From the NCBI RefSeq assembly GCF_900100655.1, contig NZ_FNCE01000007.1, forward strand, positions 62,001-126,000: DNA of 64,000 nt. Reading direction: 5' to 3'. Position numbers and translations under genes: made by a program. This document shows positions 1,943 to 64,000 of this stretch, in pieces. This DNA comes from Limimonas halophila (GTDB lineage Bacteria > Pseudomonadota > Alphaproteobacteria > Kiloniellales > Rhodovibrionaceae). The notes under the pieces were generated by a model, which made no database searches, was not told the DNA's origin, and saw nothing but the letters and a program-made list of their open reading frames with translations. Every line of letters begins with the position of its first letter. Within the stretch, counting starts at the first letter, position 1.

Positions 1943-2753
1943 GCAGCGCCTCCGTCACCGTGGGCTCGACGCCGAACCAGGCGGCGAAGCCGGGCCGCGC
2001 CTGGTGCAGCAGCATGCCCAGGCCGTCCACCACGGGATTGCCGCGCGCCCGCGCGTCCGAGAGCAGCTGGGTTTCCAGCGGGCGGTAGACGATGTCGTTG
2101 ACCACGGCCGAGGGCGGCAGCGCGTCAAGCTCGGCGGGCAGGGGCGGTTCGCCGGTCATGCCCAGGCTGGTGGTGTTGACCAGCAGCGCCGCGCCGTCGA
2201 GCGCGTCCGCCCAGCCATCCCAGGCGTGGACCGTGATGGGGCCGCCGAGCGTTTCGGCCAGGGTCTCCGCGCGCTCGCGCGTCCGGTTCATCAAGCGGAT
2301 CTCCGGCACGCCCGCGTCCATCAGCGCGACGATCACCGCGCGCGCGGCGCCGCCCGCGCCGAGCACGACCGCCGGGCCGTCCGCCGGGGACCACCGCGGC
2401 GCGCCCTGGCGCAGGTTGTCCAGAAAGCCGACGCCGTCGGTGTTGCGGCCGTGGATGCCGGCCGCGTCGAAGATCAGGGTGTTCACCGCGCCCAGCCGGC
2501 GGGCGTGATCGTCCACGCTGTCGCAGATCTCCAGGGCGCGTTCCTTGTGCGGCACGGTGACGTTGGCGCCGCGGAAATGCAGATCGCGCAGGGCGGGGAC
2601 GGCGGCGGCGAAGCGCTCCGGCGCGACGGCGAGCGGCACGTAGGCCCCGTCGATGCCGTGCTCTTCCAGCCAGTACCCGTGAACCTGCGGCGACTTGGAA
2701 TGCGCCACGGGCCAGCCGAGCACGCCCGCGAGCGCGGCCTTGCCAGTGAGCAT
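1920..2753 (-). CDS. aroE: Shikimate dehydrogenase (NADP+)
   Basis: Reduces 3-dehydroshikimate to shikimate in the aromatic amino acid pathway. Visible signatures are the shikimate-binding HSKSP (residues 18-22), the catalytic Lys in NVTVPHKE, the DGVGF segment with the second catalytic Asp, and the glycine-rich NADP-binding loop GAGGAARAV. The 277-residue length is normal. It overlaps coaE and follows maf after a 243-nt gap (2754-2996). That gap contains no gene and shares short stretches (for example TTCACGCACGAT) with the region after parB. Confidence 0.96.
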   Translation of the reverse strand: MLTGKAALAGVLGWPVAHSKSPQVHGYWLEEHGIDGAYVPLAVAPERFAAAVPALRDLHFRGANVTVPHKERALEICDSVDDHARRLGAVNTLIFDAAGIHGRNTDGVGFLDNLRQGAPRWSPADGPAVVLGAGGAARAVIVALMDAGVPEIRLMNRTRERAETLAETLGGPITVHAWDGWADALDGAALLVNTTSLGMTGEPPLPAELDALPPSAVVNDIVYRPLETQLLSDARARGNPVVDGLGMLLHQARPGFAAWFGVEPTVTEALRAHVLGG

Positions 2754-2996
2754 TAGCGCCTCGTCCTAGATGTTGTGATCATTGGCAGAACCGAAGGCAT
2801 GGACGACACCCCTCCTTCTTGCGTGCTAGCAGTTTCAACGCCGTTGGCGTTTACCGGCCTGCCGGCCGCTTCACGCACGATCAAGCGGAATCAGCGAGCA
2901 GGCTGCGACGCGTGGGCGCAACATACGGAAAAGCTCCCGGCCGCATGGATAAATGCGATCGTCAGGAACCTGCTGGTTCCGCTTGCCGGCGATCCG

Positions 2997-3653
2997 CTAG
3001 CGCTTGACCACCTTGTGATTGCGGAGCTGTTCGAGCAGCGGCAGCAGCGGCAGGCCGAGCACGGTGAAGTAGTCGCCGCGCACCCGCGCGAAGAGCTGCG
3101 CGCCCAGGCCCTCCAGCTGGTAGCCGCCCACGGAGCCCAGGGCGGCGTCGCCCACGGCGTCCAGATAGCCGGCGATGAAATCCTCGGACAGCGGACGCAC
3201 CATCAGCTCGGCGCTGTCCGTCTGGTGCCAGATGCGCGTGCCGTCCTTCACCAGCACGGCCGTGACGATCAGCCGGTGCGTGCGCCCCGAGAGCGCGCGC
3301 AGGTGCTCGCCCGCCTGCTCGCGCGAGCTGGGCTTGTCGTACCAGATGCCGTCGCATTCCAGCATCTGGTCGGCGCCCAGCACGAGCGCGCCGGGGTGAT
3401 AGGGGCTGATGCGCTGGGCCTTCACCTCGGCCAGGGATTCCGCGACCTCCTCGGCGCTCGCGCCCGCGTGCCGCATCGATGCCTTGATCTCGTCCTCGTC
3501 CACGCCGGCGGCCTGGATGGTCACGGGCACGCCGGCGCTCACCAGCATGTCGCGGCGCGAGGGGCTCTTGGAGGCGAGGACGAGCGGCGGCGCCTCGGGG
3601 TCGGGTGCGCCGATGCGGGTCGCCGGTTCGTGGGCGGTGGAACGCGCGGTCAT
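2997..3653 (-). CDS. maf: Maf/YceF-type nucleoside triphosphate pyrophosphatase
   Basis: Maf proteins hydrolyse non-canonical or modified nucleotides to monophosphates and have been linked to cell division arrest. The product has the signature LASKSPSRRDML near residue 25 and the catalytic GADQML motif near residue 90, in a 218-residue protein with a short variable N-terminal extension. The ATG overlaps the ppsR stop by four bases (ATGA), which fixes the start and indicates translational coupling. A much longer open frame upstream is only an artefact of GC-rich sequence. Confidence 0.94.
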   Translation of the reverse strand: MTARSTAHEPATRIGAPDPEAPPLVLASKSPSRRDMLVSAGVPVTIQAAGVDEDEIKASMRHAGASAEEVAESLAEVKAQRISPYHPGALVLGADQMLECDGIWYDKPSSREQAGEHLRALSGRTHRLIVTAVLVKDGTRIWHQTDSAELMVRPLSEDFIAGYLDAVGDAALGSVGGYQLEGLGAQLFARVRGDYFTVLGLPLLPLLEQLRNHKVVKR

Positions 3654-4474
3654 TGGGCCTCGGTGCGGTGCTGGGCGAAGTGGCTGAGGATGGTGGCGGC
3701 CGTTTCCTCGATGGAGCGGCGGGTGACGTCGATCACCGGCCAGTCGTGCTTGGCGAAGAGCTTGCGCGCTTCCGCGACCTCGCGGCGCACGCTGTTGAGG
3801 TCGACGTACTCGCTGTCCGCCATGCCGCCGGCTTCGGCGTTGACGCGCTGGCGGCGCACCTGCACGAGCTGCGCCGGGTCCTTCGTCAGCCCCACCACGA
3901 GGGCGCGTTTCACGTGGAACAGCTCGGTGGGCAGGGGAATGCCCGGCACGAAGGGCACGTTGGCGGCCTTGATGCCCCGGTTGGCCAGGTAGATGCAGGT
4001 CGGCGTCTTCGAGGTGCGCGAGACGCCGACGAGGATGACGTCGGCCTCCTTGAGCTGGCGCGCGGCCTGGCCGTCGTCGTGGCTGAGCGCATAGTTCATG
4101 GCGTCGATGCGCTCGAAGTAGTGGGAGTCCATCGCGTGCTGCAAGCCCGGCTGGCCCGTGATGGGCACGCCGAAGTGCGCGGCCAGCGCGTGCATCACCG
4201 GGTCCAGCACCGGGATGCAGGGCACGTTCATCTCCTGGCACGCCTCCACCAGCTTCGTGCGCAGGTCGTCGCGCATGACGGTGAAGAGCACCGGCCCCGG
4301 CGTGGCGCGGATGCCGTTGAGCACCTTGTCCATCTGCTTCGCCGAGCGGACCAGCGACCAGACGTGCTCGATGGGCTCGATGTCGCGGAACTGCACGAGG
4401 CAGGCCCGCGCGCAGGCGTTCACCGTCTCGCCGGTCGAGTCCGAAACCAGGTGAAGATGCACGGGGTCGGTCAT
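3650..4474 (-). CDS. ppsR: Pyruvate, phosphate dikinase regulatory protein (DUF299)
   Basis: Bifunctional serine/threonine kinase and pyrophosphorylase that switches pyruvate phosphate dikinase or PEP synthase off and on. The 274-residue product begins MTDPVHLHLVSDSTGETV, the standard DUF299 N terminus, and carries the P-loop-like GVSRTSKTPTCIYLANRG near the middle. It corresponds to the Rickettsia RP001 gene, which borders the chromosome origin together with hemE in Caulobacter and Rickettsia. It is the first gene of the leftward ppsR-maf-aroE-coaE-dnaQ run and reads away from the proposed origin. One parS-like site lies inside it (3906-3921). Confidence 0.95.
   Translation of the reverse strand: MTDPVHLHLVSDSTGETVNACARACLVQFRDIEPIEHVWSLVRSAKQMDKVLNGIRATPGPVLFTVMRDDLRTKLVEACQEMNVPCIPVLDPVMHALAAHFGVPITGQPGLQHAMDSHYFERIDAMNYALSHDDGQAARQLKEADVILVGVSRTSKTPTCIYLANRGIKAANVPFVPGIPLPTELFHVKRALVVGLTKDPAQLVQVRRQRVNAEAGGMADSEYVDLNSVRREVAEARKLFAKHDWPVIDVTRRSIEETAATILSHFAQHRTEAQ
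3906..3921. other. parS-like site 1 (weak)
   Basis: CGTTTCACGTGGAACA matches the parS consensus TGTTTCACGTGAAACA at 14 of 16 bases and keeps the central CACGTG. It lies in the ppsR coding region. It is the weakest of the six sites on its own and gains support from its position between the proposed origin and parAB. Confidence 0.45.
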
Positions 4475-4890
4475 CGCGCAGGTGCACAACCGGGGGAGGT
4501 GTTGGGGACGAACCCGGGACGGATCGTGCGCCGCGCGCCAGCCCCGCGAAGCGTCCCCGCAGAGGCCAACGCGCCGCACAGCAACGTGCCCAGGCGCCCG
4601 CAGCGTCCACGGGCGGTGGAGACAGTGGCAAACGGCTCCATCGGGAACAAGGTTTTCCGCGTTCTTCCACGCGGCCGCGCGACTCCTTGCGGACAAGCCG
4701 AGTCGGGGCCGCCGCCGGCGAGGATTCGTCCACAGGTGGGGATTTTGCGGGCCCACCTCGAACGGATCTGGGGACAACTTGGGGACGGCGTGGTGATCCC
4801 CATTGTCCACAGGCCCAACCGCCACTACCACCCTCTTTGATCAGAAAATATGGGGGTGTATGGGGGCGGTCCGTCATGTGGAGGAAAACC
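4475..4890. other. Candidate chromosomal replication origin (oriC)
   Basis: This 416-nt gap between divergent ppsR and hemE has no gene. The hemE/RP001(DUF299) gap is the mapped or proposed origin in Caulobacter and Rickettsia. DnaA-box-like nonamers are visible: TTGTCCACA at 4803-4811 (8 of 9 to TTATCCACA), TCGTCCACA at 4726-4734 (7 of 9), TGGGGACAA at 4769-4777 (7 of 9 in reverse). Related TGGGGA motifs start at 4503, 4737 and 4780. The most AT-rich stretch is 4837-4852 (TTTGATCAGAAAATAT), a possible unwinding element. Genes on both sides read away from it, and parAB with parS-like sites lies within 9 kb. Replication activity is inferred, not shown. Confidence 0.75.
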
Positions 4891-8263: not shown

Positions 8264-10309
8264 TTACCGCAACAATTGGCGCAGTGCCTCCGGGTCGCTC
8301 ACGGGCTGCGAGCAGGTGGCGCCGTGGCAGACGTAGGCCGTGGGTCGGCCGTCCAGCTGCGCCTTGCCGGCGGCGGGGTGGCCGTCGGGCAGGGCGGCGT
8401 CCGGCGCCACCACCTGCAGCACGCGGTTGGGCAGGAGCGTCCGCTCCACGACGCGGATCAGGGCCTGGGTGTCGTCCCGCCCGCGGTCGCCGATGATCGC
8501 AATCTGCGTGGACGCGTTCAGCAACTCGACATTGGCGAGCAGCGTGCACAGCGGCACGAAGTTGCGCGACAGCTCCCCGGCGAAGGCGCGGGTGAGGGCG
8601 TGAGCGCGCTCGCGGTAGGCGGTGTTTCCCGTGAAACAGGCGAGGCGCGCGAGCACGCCGAGCGCCAGGCCGTTGCCCGAGGGCTGGGCGCTGTCGTGCG
8701 CGTGCTTGGGCCGCAGGATGACGTCGTCCACGTCGTCGGCTGTGATGAAGTAGCCGCCGTTCTCCGCGTCCCAGAAATGGCGGTCCAGGGTCGCCGCCCA
8801 GCGCTCGGCGTCGGCGAGGTAGGTCGGCTTGCCCGTGTGCTCGTGGAGGGTGAGGGCGGCGCGGGCCATGGCGGCGTAGTCGTCCAGCGTGCCGGCGTGC
8901 TGGGCCTGCCCGCGGCGCCAGGCGTGCAGCAAGCGGCCGTCGCGGTCCATGTTGTCGCGCACGAAGGAGAAGGCGCGCGCGGCGGCGTGCAGCCACGCGG
9001 TCTCGCCGAAGGCGGCGCCGGCCTCGGCGAGCGCGGCGATCGCCAGGCCGTTCCAGTCCGCCAGCACCTTGTCGTCCCACCCCGGGCGCACCCGGCGCTC
9101 GCGCACGGCGAAGAGGCGGGCGCGGCACGCCGCCAGCTTGGACTCCGCGCCCTCGCCGAGGCTGTTGGGCGCGTTGAGGCGGTTGAGGATGGTCTTGCCG
9201 TTCTCCCAGTTGCCTTCGCCCGAGACGTCGTAGACGCGCTTGAACAGCTCCGCGTCGCCGCCGAGCACGTGGTCGATCTCGGCTTCGGTCCAGACGTAGA
9301 ACTTGCCTTCCTCGCCCTCGCTGTCGGCGTCGAGCGAGGCGGCGAACGCGCCCGTGGGCTCGCCGTTTGCATCCAGCGCGATCATTTCGCGCAGCAGCCA
9401 GCCCACGGTGTCGTGGACGCGGCGGTGGAAGAGGGCGTCCCCCGTTTCCTGCCACGCCCAGGTCAGCGCTTCCAGCAGCTGCGCGTTGTCGTAGAGCATC
9501 TTCTCGAAGTGCGGGACCAGCCAGCGCTCGTCCACGGAATAGCGCGCGAAGCCGCCGCCGAGATGGTCGTAGATGCCGCCCTGGCTCATGCGGCGTAGGG
9601 TGAGGAGCGCGCCCTCGCGCGCCTGTTCGGTGCCGCTGCGCACCCAGCCGCGGAAGAGCATGGCGAGGATGGCCGGCTGCGGGAACTTGGGCTGCGTGCC
9701 GATGCCGCCGTGCGTGGGATCGACGGACTGGGCGAGGCGGTTCGCGGCTTCGTCCAGCATTGCGGGGTCGACGTCGCCGCCGCCCTGTGGCTGCGCCATG
9801 CCCTGCAGCGCGTCGCGCAGGCGCGTGACGTTGGTTTGGACCTTGTCCGGCTCCTGGTTCCAGACGTTGGCGATCGTCTCCAGCACGCGGGGCAGGCCGG
9901 CCATGCCGTAGCGGTCAAAGCGCGGGAAATAGGTGCCGCCCCAGAAGGGCTCGCCGTCGGGCGTGAGGAACATCGTCAGCGGCCAGCCGCCGTGCTGGCC
10001 GAGCAGGGCGATGGCGTTCTGGTAGATGTGGTCGAGGTCCGGGCGCTCCTCGCGGTCCACCTTGATGTTGATGAAGTGGCGGTTCATCACCTCGGCCACC
10101 TCGGGGTCCTCGAAGGACTCGTGCGCCATGACGTGGCACCAGTGGCAGGCCGCGTAGCCGACCGACAGCAGGATGGGCTTGTTCTCGCGCTTCGCCGCGT
10201 CCAGCGCCTCGCGGCCCCAGGGATGCCAGGCCACGGGATTGTCCTTGTGCTGAAGGAGGTAGGGCGAGGTTTCGCCGGCGAGGCGGTTGGCGCCGTGCTG
10301 CTCGGCCAT
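8264..10309 (-). CDS. Thioredoxin-domain DUF255 protein (YyaL/SPATA20 family)
   Basis: A 681-residue protein with an N-terminal thioredoxin-like domain (about 1-160) and a C-terminal (alpha/alpha)6-barrel domain. The thioredoxin part has the family hallmark [15 protein letters not shown], a CxxC-like redox site. Downstream are the conserved [20 protein letters not shown] and a barrel resembling N-acylglucosamine epimerases. Its function is not established. The ATG at 10309 has GGAGAG upstream; the much longer open frame continuing to 11785 is antisense to rsmG and parA. Where close relatives usually have mnmG beside rsmG, this gene is found instead. A parS-like site is embedded in it (8623-8638). 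Confidence 0.9.
8623..8638. other. parS-like site 3
   Basis: TGTTTCCCGTGAAACA is the exact reverse complement of the intergenic site at 13119-13134 and matches the parS consensus at 15 of 16 bases. It lies in the DUF255 coding sequence. Confidence 0.75.
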
Positions 10310-60688: not shown

Positions 60689-61759
60689 ATGGTCGCGCGC
60701 GTGGCTACCGTCGCCTTCCGCGGCATCGAGGCCGTGGACGTCGAGGTTCAGGTGCAGATGTCGCAGGGCCTGCCCGCCTTCCAGATCGTGGGCCTGCCCA
60801 ACAAGGCCGTGGACGAAAGCAAGGAGCGCGTGCGCGCCGCCCTGGGCGCGCTGGGCCTCTCGCTGCCGCCCAAGCGCATCACGGTGAACCTCGCCCCCGC
60901 CGACCTCGCCAAGGAGGGCAGCCACTTCGACCTGCCCATCGCGCTGGCGGTGCTGGTGGCGATGGAGGCCGTGCCGGCGGAGGACGCGAGAACCTACCTC
61001 GCGCTCGGGGAACTCGGACTCGACGGGCGGCTGGCCGACGTGGCGGGCGCGCTGCCGGCCGCGATCCACGCCAACGGCCGCGACCTTGGCCTGATCTGCC
61101 CGGCGAACCAGGGCCCGGAAGCCGCCTGGGCGGGCGAGGACGTGGAGGTGCTAGCCCCCGACAGCCTTATCGCCCTGGTGAACCACTTCAAGGGCTCGCA
61201 GATCCTCACCCCGCCGGCGGCGCAGGTCGCCACCGCGGACGGCCGCGCCCCCGACCTCGCCGACATCAAGGGCCAGGAAACGGCCAAGCGCGCGCTGGAG
61301 ATCGCCGCCGCCGGCGGGCACAACATGCTGATGATCGGCCCGCCGGGCGCCGGCAAGTCCATGCTGGCCGCGCGCATGCCGGGGCTGATGCCGCCCCTGG
61401 ACGCCCGCGAGGCCCTGGAGGTCTCGATGGTGCACTCCGTGGCCGGCGGCCTGCCCGACGGCAAGCTGATCAGCCAGCGCCCGTACAGAGATCCGCACCA
61501 CAGCGCGTCCCTGCCGTCATTGACGGGTGGCGGTGTGAATTACATTAGTTCCTGCGACAAAACATCGGTCAATGCGACTCGCGTGCCTAGCAAGCGTGAG
61601 GGCGGTACGAAGGCTGGACCTGCTGCGTACCCTTGTCACGCTAGGTCTTCTTGCACGCCGCCCGGCGCGCGACTGGATTGGCGTGGCGGGGTGGCGCACC
61701 GCCTGGCCGCGCGATGTCCGCGTGCGGCCGGGGCCGGCCGGGCCGGGTTCGTGCTCTGA
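60689..61759 (+). pseudogene. comM: Truncated ComM/YifB Mg-chelatase-like ATPase
   Basis: The intact family has about 510 residues and helps branch migration during natural transformation. Here residues 1-281 are typical: VATVAFRGIEAVDVEVQ, VGLPNKAVDESKERVRAAL, Walker A GPPGAGKSMLAAR, and RPYRDPHHSAS. After GGG at about 61532 the sequence changes to unrelated residues and ends at 61759. The expected PGEISLAHNG/FLDELPEF Walker B half and the C-terminal domain are missing. The break coincides with the edge of a foreign AT-rich segment, so an insertion in comM is likely. Start ATG 60689 has AGGGGAG upstream. Confidence 0.88.
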
Positions 61760-61926
61760 GGAACCTATCCCCGAGGCAACGCTCCTCGCCGCGTGCCACC
61801 GGCCGGACGCACCCCAAAATACGGCGACGAGCCGGGACCATGAGGACACGGCCAAGGTATTAATTAACGCAGCTCACTGCCGAACCTTGGCACGAATCCG
61901 GGTAATTAAGAGAAGCCAAACAGGAT
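61533..61926. other. Junction region of the insert in comM
   Basis: Immediately after the last comM-like codons the sequence begins TGTGAATTACATTAGTTCCT and continues with small repeats (CCTAGC-AA-GCGTGA near 61591, inverted TCACGCTAGG at 61637). A short GC-rich stretch (61650-61820) is followed by AT-rich insert DNA. comM is the known insertion gene of AbaR/Tn6022-type Tn7-like elements in Acinetobacter, so this could be an element end. No transposase is present in the window. Confidence 0.5.
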
Positions 61927-62151
61927 CTAGCTGTTATCGCCACGCAATAGTTTCTTGACTCTCTGTTCTATATTTGGGCCAATGTTACGATATGTCTCTT
62001 CAACACTCTGAACCCGCTCAAGAACCCATTGCGCGTCTCCCTCGCTAAAATCCACATCCTTGGTAAAATATTCCTGACCTGAGGGGGTTTCCTGCCGCAG
62101 CGCAACGGTCGTAACGTTCGACTGCTCATCGTGGCTCGGATTAGTGACCAT
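61927..62151 (-). CDS. Small hypothetical protein paired with the patatin-GAF gene
   Basis: A 74-residue charged protein that I do not recognise (MVTNPSHDEQSNVTTVALRQ near the start, VKKLLRGDNS at the end). It is mostly hydrophilic with a helical C-terminal half (DAQWVLERVQSVEETYRN). The ATG at 62151 lies inside the last codons of the patatin gene (11-nt overlap) and is preceded by GGAGG, which strongly supports a real coupled gene. It could regulate or neutralise the patatin protein, but this is inference from position only. Confidence 0.7.
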   Translation of the reverse strand: MVTNPSHDEQSNVTTVALRQETPSGQEYFTKDVDFSEGDAQWVLERVQSVEETYRNIGPNIEQRVKKLLRGDNS

Positions 62152-63853
62152 TGCCTCCACCTCCCAGCGCCTCAGAAAGAATCGATGAGAATACCATAGC
62201 ATAAGCACCAAACAAACGCATAAACACTCTATCTATGTACTCCCGCCACAGATCCTCACTGCTGTCAATGGATACCACGCCCAACGGCTTCATCCCTGTG
62301 GACGTGCCAGCGGCCGTGCCCGTTGGCGACCAGACGGGAAGTGCTATGATGGATTGCAAATTCGGAGAAACCATCGCCATTTCATACTTCGTCATGTAAA
62401 GTGACCTACGACTATTGCGGCTAACATTCAGATAAACTGCTTTCCGTTTGTGAAATGCTGCAGGGGCCCCTGCATTTCGGGAATCGATCATTAGGGCGTC
62501 ATCAGGGTCGCTACTCGCCAGTCCACTCGAGGCAACAATCTTGAACGAAAACCGACCACTGCCGACCGGTTGTATGAACATCGCCCTTAAGGTTACGGGC
62601 TGGAGCGTATCGTCGCTTGCGCGAATTTCGCTGCTTCGGTTTTCGAGAGCAACGCGAAGCTCGTGAAGAAACCGCGTCAACTGCCCCTTCATGTGGCAAT
62701 CGAAATCAAAAGTTTCCCGCGCCCTGCTATATCCTTCTCGATAGGCCTCGGATGCTTTCTCAGCAGACATATCAAGATCAAATGGCGCAATTGACGGGCT
62801 CAGTGAAACAACATACAAATCGCTTAATAGTTCATCGGTGATGCGCTGGTTACCGAAAATTCCAGCTTTGCCCACTTCCGTACAGAAATGAGAAAACGCG
62901 GCAATATTTCGGACTGATGGCCTATTCAGAAAAAATGATTTTACACATTCAGTCATGTAGCTGCGGTCAGACCGCCTTGTTGGAGTGAATTTGCTTTCAC
63001 CCCCGTCGAGTTCGAATGCCAACAAAGGAACACGATCTTGTATTTGACGCTCAATGTAACGTTTCTCGTCTGAGAAAACCCATGCCGGGAGATTGCCAAC
63101 TAAGCCGCCGTCTAAAAAGCAACGTGAAGAAGAGTCGTAGGAATGCTGTTGGCTGGAATGCTGCTTATTTGCCTCTTGTACGTCGACCGGCGAAAAAACG
63201 AACGGTATTGAGATAGACGCTAAAACAGCATCGGCTATGACTACGTCGGGAGTGTGGTGGCCGAATACCACAGGCCGACGATTGATGACGTCAGTCGCAA
63301 CAATTTTTAGAAAAGCGGCCCAATTATGATCTAATGGGTCTATGTCGCGAAAACAAACCCAATCTGGCAAAGACTCGTCATCGTTTGGGACTCCGAGATT
63401 ACTTGCCAACTTTACGCGAATTATGTAATTAATTCGTTCACGTAGCGAAGATATATCTATATAATAAAAATTTTCAATAATCGACTTCTGAACCGTGTGG
63501 GAACTCGGAACAATTCGACCAACGTGGCGGCCGAAATTCAGCATCAGAAATGCATAAATATTACTTTGAGCACTGGCTTTACGGAATGTTCGCCACTTTT
63601 TATGACCGAATACGGTGATCGGATCGGCCGCATAATTGGTTAATATATTGGAGGAGGGAGAGGCAGGATCAATAAGGTCGTCGGATCGATATCCAATTGC
63701 GACTAGGGTGGCGACTAATGCACCAGCCGAGGCGCCGGCTACACCGCGGAATACATAACCTTCCTCCTCCGCAGCTTTGAGTGCTCCGGCGTGAGCCACG
63801 CCCATTGCGCCACCGCCTTGGAAGACGCCCAGTGCAGTTGTCACGATGGCCAT
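62141..63853 (-). CDS. Patatin-like phospholipase with C-terminal GAF-like domain
   Basis: A 570-residue protein. The patatin domain (about 5-300) has the oxyanion loop GGGAMG (13-18), nucleophile S42 in GASAG (40-44) and catalytic D248 in FLDGGLVGNLPAW, so it is predicted active on phospholipid. The last 150 residues look like a GAF sensory domain (FSFKIVASSGLASS, LQSIIALPVWS, KPLGVVSIDSSEDLW). A phospholipase with a ligand-binding domain is reminiscent of signal-activated effectors such as CapV, but no nucleotide cyclase gene is seen. Low GC marks it as foreign. The small gene downstream overlaps it. Confidence 0.85.
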   Translation of the reverse strand: MAIVTTALGVFQGGGAMGVAHAGALKAAEEEGYVFRGVAGASAGALVATLVAIGYRSDDLIDPASPSSNILTNYAADPITVFGHKKWRTFRKASAQSNIYAFLMLNFGRHVGRIVPSSHTVQKSIIENFYYIDISSLRERINYIIRVKLASNLGVPNDDESLPDWVCFRDIDPLDHNWAAFLKIVATDVINRRPVVFGHHTPDVVIADAVLASISIPFVFSPVDVQEANKQHSSQQHSYDSSSRCFLDGGLVGNLPAWVFSDEKRYIERQIQDRVPLLAFELDGGESKFTPTRRSDRSYMTECVKSFFLNRPSVRNIAAFSHFCTEVGKAGIFGNQRITDELLSDLYVVSLSPSIAPFDLDMSAEKASEAYREGYSRARETFDFDCHMKGQLTRFLHELRVALENRSSEIRASDDTLQPVTLRAMFIQPVGSGRFSFKIVASSGLASSDPDDALMIDSRNAGAPAAFHKRKAVYLNVSRNSRRSLYMTKYEMAMVSPNLQSIIALPVWSPTGTAAGTSTGMKPLGVVSIDSSEDLWREYIDRVFMRLFGAYAMVFSSILSEALGGGGNGH

Positions 63854-63906
63854 TCTACTTCATTGGGGAACATGGATGTTGATAGGGTGGGGCAACCATA
63901 TCTGGG

Positions 63907-64000
63907 ATGCAAGCGGAAAATGTGGAAGTAAGACACCGGAACACGTTAAGCGGGTGGGGTGAAAGCCCCTTGGAGATACATGGGGACTCGGCGCGGGCAA
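63907..64000 (+). CDS. Possible start of a gene running off the window edge
   Basis: An open frame from ATG 63907 (MQAENVEVRHRNTLSGWGES) continues without a stop to the last base, divergent from the patatin gene. It is only about 31 codons long, its ribosome binding site is weak, and I recognise no family. Confidence 0.25.
   Translation, partial: MQAENVEVRHRNTLSGWGESPLEIHGDSARA

Follow-up and report, generated by a model that had tools for sequence, protein, structure and literature searches.

An apparent Tn6022-like Tn7 transposon with a short TnsF interrupts comM in the alphaproteobacterium Limimonas halophila

The comM gene of Limimonas halophila is split into two halves, and the 25,114 bp inserted into it are very probably a Tn6022-like, comM-homing Tn7 transposon. 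The split gene, the matched ends, the target duplication, the TnsABC-TniQ set and TnsF together argue for such an element in a host other than Acinetobacter. The kind is known; this element is a variant of it in having a short TnsF, a LuxR-LuxI pair and cargo that flanks the tns genes on either side. The window, that is, the whole stretch of 64,000 nucleotides that was analyzed, corresponds to positions 62,001 to 126,000 of contig NZ_FNCE01000007.1 (C7), so that a window-equivalent number is the C7 coordinate minus 62000. The gene halves and the borders of the element were mapped as follows.

Window 60689 to 61533, plus strand: comM 5' half, 281 codons, taking in the left copy of the target duplication
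Window 61529 to 61533 (C7:123529-123533): target-site duplication GGCGG, left copy
Window 61534 to 61759, plus strand: chance read-through of comM into the element, running to a stop codon
C7:123534-148647, 25,114 bp: Tn6022-like element; the part in the window is 61534 to 64000
Window 61534 to 61541, plus strand: left terminal repeat TGTGAATT, the first bases of the element
Window 61541 to 61582, plus strand: left-end TnsB-like sites, two 22-mers that point inward and begin at 61541 and 61561
C7 148512-148640, inward-facing: three TnsB-like sites of the right end; the right border of the element is 148647
C7:148648-148652, beyond the window: target-site duplication GGCGG, right copy
C7:148654-149331, beyond the window, same strand as the 5' half and 25.1 kb downstream of it: comM 3' half

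ComM homology extended from window position 60689 to 61533, ending with the residues SLTGGG, and the frame 60689-61759 consists of this 5' half followed by the chance read-through. The Walker A motif (GPPGAGKS) is in the 5' half and the Walker B stretch (GVLFLDE) in the 3' half, just as the original prediction, which had read the locus as comM interrupted at the edge of a foreign segment, had placed the break. In Pfam, the 5' half matched ChlI (5.1e-40) and Mg_chelatase (2e-38), the latter match being cut at profile position 96 of 207. The rest of comM had been expected beyond 64 kb and flanked by a short target duplication, and it was found there as the single genome match to the 3' part of a relative's ComM (77% identical). 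When the flanks were joined with one GGCGG, they gave an open ComM of 508 aa. Its identity to the intact ComM of G002, which belongs to the same family as the host, is 76% over 505 residues. An intact second copy of comM in the host can be rejected, since each half had one match in the genome (E <= 0.001). An uninterrupted comM, which the original prediction had suggested comparing in a sister strain, was observed in relatives. In a search of 28 genomes, host included, ComM was matched in 25 and had no match in 3, and in 23 the gene was uninterrupted, with open frames of 509-635 codons; the comM of G027 is cut by a contig end and thus falls outside these 23. Identity of the host ComM half was 69% with Methylorubrum (Alphaproteobacteria), 50% with Halomonas and 46% with Acinetobacter, in line with an alphaproteobacterial host.

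Because Walker A and Walker B now lie in separate reading frames 25 kb apart, ComM function has almost certainly been lost in this host. ComM acts in recombination of incoming DNA (as cited in Faure et al. 2023, PMC10293859), which the split would be expected to reduce. The host encodes a ComEC-family protein; the same search was also positive in 10 of 14 control genomes, so this match does not demonstrate competence.

The termini of the element match: it begins with TGTGAATT and finishes with AATTCACA. TGT...ACA ends and a 5-bp target duplication are present, as in Tn7-like transposons, and GGCGG was the sole word of at least five bases common to both junctions. Five inward 22-mers, two at the left end and three at the right, carry TGCGAC; counting both strands, the entire element contains this word 16 times. 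These putative TnsB-like end sites scored 19.7-25.0, as opposed to a best score of 16.2 in 20 one-strand shuffles, values that are high by construction since the matrix was made from the same five sites. One further strong TnsB-like site (C7:143851-143872; score 19.3 against the shuffle best of 16.2) lies directly before tnsA in the orientation of the right-end sites. It might mark a duplicate of the right end next to tnsA, and inspection by eye found no terminal repeat at the true-end spacing there; the site is as likely to be a TnsB-controlled tnsA promoter site as such a duplicate. The GC content of the element is 0.62, compared with 0.68 in window positions 1-60688. The description of the inserted DNA as soon becoming AT-rich was right in part: the first two 1.5-kb bins have a GC of 0.535 and 0.514, and other bins reach up to 0.70.

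Between the comM halves lie the genes expected of an AbaR/Tn6022-type Tn7-like element, TnsA, TnsB, TnsC and TniQ being matched there beside a TnsF-type selector.

C7 143167-143832, minus strand: TnsA (PF08722, 2.2e-14)
C7 141218-143170, minus strand: TnsB (Mu-transpos_C, 1.6e-11; rve, 7.5e-8)
C7 140331-141218, minus strand: TnsC (TniB, PF05621, 2.6e-65)
C7 139162-140334, minus strand: TniQ, 390 aa (PF06527, 1.3e-24)
C7 137933-139165, minus strand: TnsF, 410 aa, overlapping tniQ by four bases

All five frames are open, and successive frames overlap by one to four bases. The acidic triad of TnsB (D242, D326 and E362) is kept and was invariant in nine sequences. A tnsE gene was not recognised in the element, where a ClpP-like open reading frame (ORF) occupies its place. 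In G680, a genome of the same phylum, a 612-aa ORF stands at the tnsE place. Place and length made it a candidate TnsE; Pfam gave no match to it, so it is no proven TnsE, and it had no match in our element at E <= 1.

The 410-aa TnsF-like ORF is diverged and had no Pfam or NCBIfam match; the G680 TnsF likewise lacks a Pfam match. It was found directly by the TnsF of G680 (30% identical over ORF residues 150-407, E of 1.6e-24), and it adjoins TniQ, as in the Tn6022 family. A profile of 31 distinct relatives that are TnsF or TnsF-like, including two Tsy-like ones, from which this protein and the Methylorubrum one had been left out, matched it with an E of 2.4e-63 over positions 132-479 of 485; since the 31 sequences were gathered by an iterative search seeded with this protein and the G680 TnsF, the profile is not wholly independent. 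The N-terminal zinc-finger part (profile positions 1-131) is absent, and by eye the frame upstream of the start contained no zinc-finger-like cysteine pairs. In the passages of Faure et al. on Tn6022, membership is not made conditional on this part. The profile match begins at position 132 in this TnsF and at 137 in that of Methylorubrum zatmanii (L096), whereas the other TnsF proteins, the builders of the profile, begin at position 9 or before, apart from L099 (62) and fragments.

Both trees pair the two elements, that of TnsB with an SH-aLRT of 84 (quick method) and that of TnsF with 84/68 (careful method; L096 on a long branch), which makes one origin of both short TnsF proteins plausible, if weakly supported. 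In the description of TnsF by Faure et al. (PMC10293859), the first 199 aa hold several zinc fingers, and tandem core-binding domains in the rest of the protein are predicted to contact DNA. That TnsF proteins without most of the zinc-finger part are encoded by elements still located at comM suggests that the fingers are dispensable for reading comM. TnsF was found in 1 of 385 genomes of the class sample, the host itself, and in 7 of 398 of the phylum sample, host included; there, the match in G692 contains stops, and those in G445 and G423 look like Tsy.

The element resembles the Tn6022/AbaR type of Acinetobacter (AjTn6022, PMC10293859) in its comM target at the same codons and its 5-bp duplication. 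As in Acinetobacter loci L134, L137, L141-L143 and L150-L152, the tnsA side faces the comM 3' half. Adjoining and overlapping tniQ and tnsF are a further resemblance to Tn6022. The element differs in the lengths of TnsF (410 aa, as opposed to 498 in the published Tn6022) and TniQ (390 versus 369; PMC10293859). A tnsE, carried on the opposite strand by the published Tn6022, was not recognised here. Compared with the Acinetobacter loci, TnsB is 38-41% identical, about 4.8 kb separate tnsA from comM, and the insertion lies one base further upstream. M. zatmanii, likewise an alphaproteobacterium, has the sister TnsB in the tree, the same comM site and a TnsF that also lacks the N-terminal part (389 aa, profile 137-483). 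Its TnsB is 47% identical to ours; its tnsA-comM distance is 332 bp, and approximately 5 kb lie between its tnsB and tnsC. In G680, whose TnsB is 49% identical, tnsABC-tniQ-tnsF adjoins the comM 3' half, and the contig also carries the 5' half. There, however, TnsF (497 aa) and TniQ (369 aa) are near the published Tn6022 lengths (498 and 369; PMC10293859), and the 612-aa ORF without a Pfam match stands where Tn6022 has tnsE.

We evaluated how TnsF and the comM site go together among 80 loci from named organisms, the best 80 of 244 recovered by a genome scan with a TnsB alignment. The comM 3' half adjoined tnsA in 29 of 33 loci with TnsF and in 12 of 47 loci without detected TnsF; these are given as counts because the rows are related and some contigs end early. 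Of the four loci with TnsF that did not adjoin comM, two are short contigs (L082 and L108) and one, L144, is an Acinetobacter plasmid; the fourth is L086. The 12 comM-adjoining loci without detected TnsF include short contigs (L109, L122, L145 and L157) where TnsF may be cut off. Given these 12, position in comM alone is no proof of targeting by TnsF. Eight loci (L104, L131, L139, L140, L146, L153, L154 and L160) are comM-inserted Tn7-like elements in which no TnsF was detected. The TniQ frame is long (519-547 aa) in L131, L140 and L160; in the remaining five, all from Bacteroidota, it is short (326-372 aa), and no partner was evident. Other selectors may thus reach the same comM site. Among the 35 loci with neither TnsF nor an adjoining 3' half, 3 kb separate tnsA from a comM 3' piece in L123, and in L147 (Planctobacterium marinum; 8353-9201 and 9340 onward) the comM 5' half stands beside tnsA, in the opposite orientation and at about the same codons.

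The distance between tnsA and comM was 55-332 bp in 39 of the 41 comM-adjoining relatives among these 80, and 683 and 843 bp in the remaining two, with the 843 bp counted from tnsB. In two loci, L133 and L146, no tnsA was matched and tnsB served as the reference. As to the approximately 4.8 kb found here, either the cargo in them may have been gained inside the right end, or the site at C7:143851-143872 may be retained to control tnsA. The insertion lies in comM near the Walker B codons, as in the Tn6022 family, and the right ends of relatives mostly end in ACA before the same glycine codons. Counted by eye, 17 nt separate ACA from the PGE codons in the Acinetobacter rows and 18 nt here, so the insertion site is the same to within one base. 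In Methylorubrum, Halomonas sp. JB37 and Acinetobacter beijerinckii, whose 3' halves adjoin tnsA, the comM 5' half matched up to the query's end, and its open frames have only 344, 291 and 308 codons, respectively; since the query itself ends at the insertion point, this establishes the interruption in the three genomes and not its exact 5' border.

Two further loci stood apart. L067 (G756, 2516-4564) is a TnsABC-TniQ element beside a comM cut at a different place, near ComM residue 74-79, and a piece matching ComM residues 7-79, with one internal stop, lies 49 kb away. L092, from a record titled Bacillus subtilis, is close to the Pseudomonadota elements and has a comM 3' half 50% identical to the G002 ComM; it possibly represents contamination or a mislabelled genome. 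Among 72,556 plasmid records, 3404 contained TnsB relatives (E <= 1e-60), all of them below 60% identity (48% for the first listed). A pattern scan of viral contigs gave 62 pattern matches and no relative of the element.

Since TnsF is common to Tn6022 and to Tsy (PMC10293859), we considered whether a Tsy-type tyrosine-recombinase element, rather than a Tn7 element, might have split comM. ZooTsy, as presented in that paper, also splits comM using a TnsF homologue; it differs in having an active tyrosine recombinase and no Tn7 genes. TnsABC and TniQ are present here, as are inverted ends with a 5-bp duplication, and the Tsy-like loci of G445 and G423 keep comM homology through Walker B, up to residue 24 of the 3' half, and encode TnsF-like proteins of 639-640 aa. 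We therefore regard a Tsy origin as extremely improbable. (In these two loci, L036 and L037, comM is split after the Walker B codons and no Tn7 gene was matched within the 20 kb examined, which fits Tsy.) A mis-assembly joining comM to unrelated sequence could be suspected in a 3.04-Mb draft genome of 26 contigs. Both halves lie on one contig, however, and the same 5-bp direct repeat and matched ends stand exactly at both junctions, which leaves this explanation scarcely credible.

A less distant alternative, in fact a special case of the favored one, is that the element arrived as a comM-homing Tn7 transposon and is now immobile, its TnsF having decayed. The missing zinc-finger part, the lack of a recognised tnsE and an SNase-like cargo gene split between two frames speak for decay. 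Against it, TnsF is shortened in the same way in Methylorubrum, whose element likewise sits at this point beside the comM 3' half, and the five tns frames are open and tightly overlapping, with the TnsB triad kept. On balance, we consider present immobility unlikely.

For the Tn6022-like transposon that we favor, transposition can be presumed to follow the tested Tn6022 of Acinetobacter johnsonii. That element requires each of TnsA, TnsB, TnsC, TniQ and TnsF; its TnsF binds comM, for which 10 bp within Walker B are essential, and TniQ is the proposed hub (PMC10293859). By that analogy, TnsF would bind comM around the Walker B codons and TniQ would bridge it to TnsC. TnsA and TnsB would then cut the element out and join it approximately 45-60 bp upstream of these codons, and gap repair would produce the 5-bp duplication.

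The cargo occupies both sides of the tns genes, with the approximately 4.8 kb between tnsA and comM including a CBASS-type cyclase.

Window 62141 to 63853, minus strand: patatin-like phospholipase, 570 aa (Pfam Patatin, 8.8e-24)
C7 126245-127258, plus strand: Tle1-like lipase (PF09994, 1.9e-67)
C7 127283-128380, plus strand: second patatin (2.7e-21)
C7 128377-129771, plus strand: M19 dipeptidase (4.8e-35)
C7 130128-130883, minus strand: LuxI-type synthase (PF00765, 2.5e-35)
C7 130900-131814, minus strand: LuxR-type regulator (PF03472, 3e-29)
C7 around 132200-132810 (L023 11201-11808), plus strand: SNase/Excalibur-like gene, split between two frames
C7 132841-133128, minus strand: ribbon-helix-helix protein (5.1e-17)
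C7 133173-136406 (L023 12174-15407), minus strand: MkoC-like helicase (PADLOC, 3.8e-248)
C7 136597-137700 (L023 15598-16701), plus strand: ClpP-like ORF (best 8.8e-6; PF01972 weak, 1.8e-5)
C7 144030-144452, plus strand: SLATT-like ORF (4.9e-5, under its cut-off)
C7 144484-145353, plus strand: CBASS-type cyclase (PADLOC, 7.8e-97)
C7 145397-145951, minus strand: ORF without a family
C7 146127-147227, plus strand: DUF4062 protein (1.3e-21)
C7 147426-148475, plus strand: ORF without a family

The helicase matched the profile of MkoC, a Mokosh defence protein, up to position 965 of 1136 and lacks the C-terminal 171 positions. The LuxI-type gene was considered as the host's only source of an acyl-homoserine lactone (AHL) synthase and rejected as such: elsewhere, the genome contains a second PF00765 match, not recovered when the element's own protein was the query (E <= 1e-8), and two further matches to PF03472. 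A comparison (E <= 1e-8) of the cargo with the ORFs found in 91 other loci yielded a relative for the second patatin only (L085, 35%). Thus, neither LuxI-LuxR nor CBASS is shared cargo in the stretches compared. AHL quorum-sensing terms were absent from the main text of the survey of Tn7-like cargo by Benler et al. (PMC8649781; word search), and no report of AHL cargo on Tn7-like elements was found in searches of an open-access library. At L024 (8339-9274), the comM 3' half is followed immediately by a gene on the opposite strand for a 311-aa SDH-type ClpP-like protease (PF01972, 4.5e-24), the family that the ClpP-like cargo ORF matched weakly.

The CBASS-type, Mokosh-like and lipase genes and the LuxR-LuxI pair probably pay for their carriage as defence and signalling. 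A more speculative proposal, less likely than not, is that comM-homing Tn7 elements have a branch in Alphaproteobacteria whose TnsF functions devoid of N-terminal zinc fingers, comM being recognized by the recombinase-like part alone, and that the LuxR-LuxI circuit of this member could switch cargo or transposition genes by cell density. The two short TnsF proteins are apparent natural deletions and could help to locate the region of the selector that reads comM. The element extends the range of comM-homing Tn7 elements beyond Acinetobacter to an alphaproteobacterial host, within one base of the place of insertion seen there. It brings quorum sensing together with defence-like genes, and its position should disable a gene for recombination of DNA taken up by the cell.
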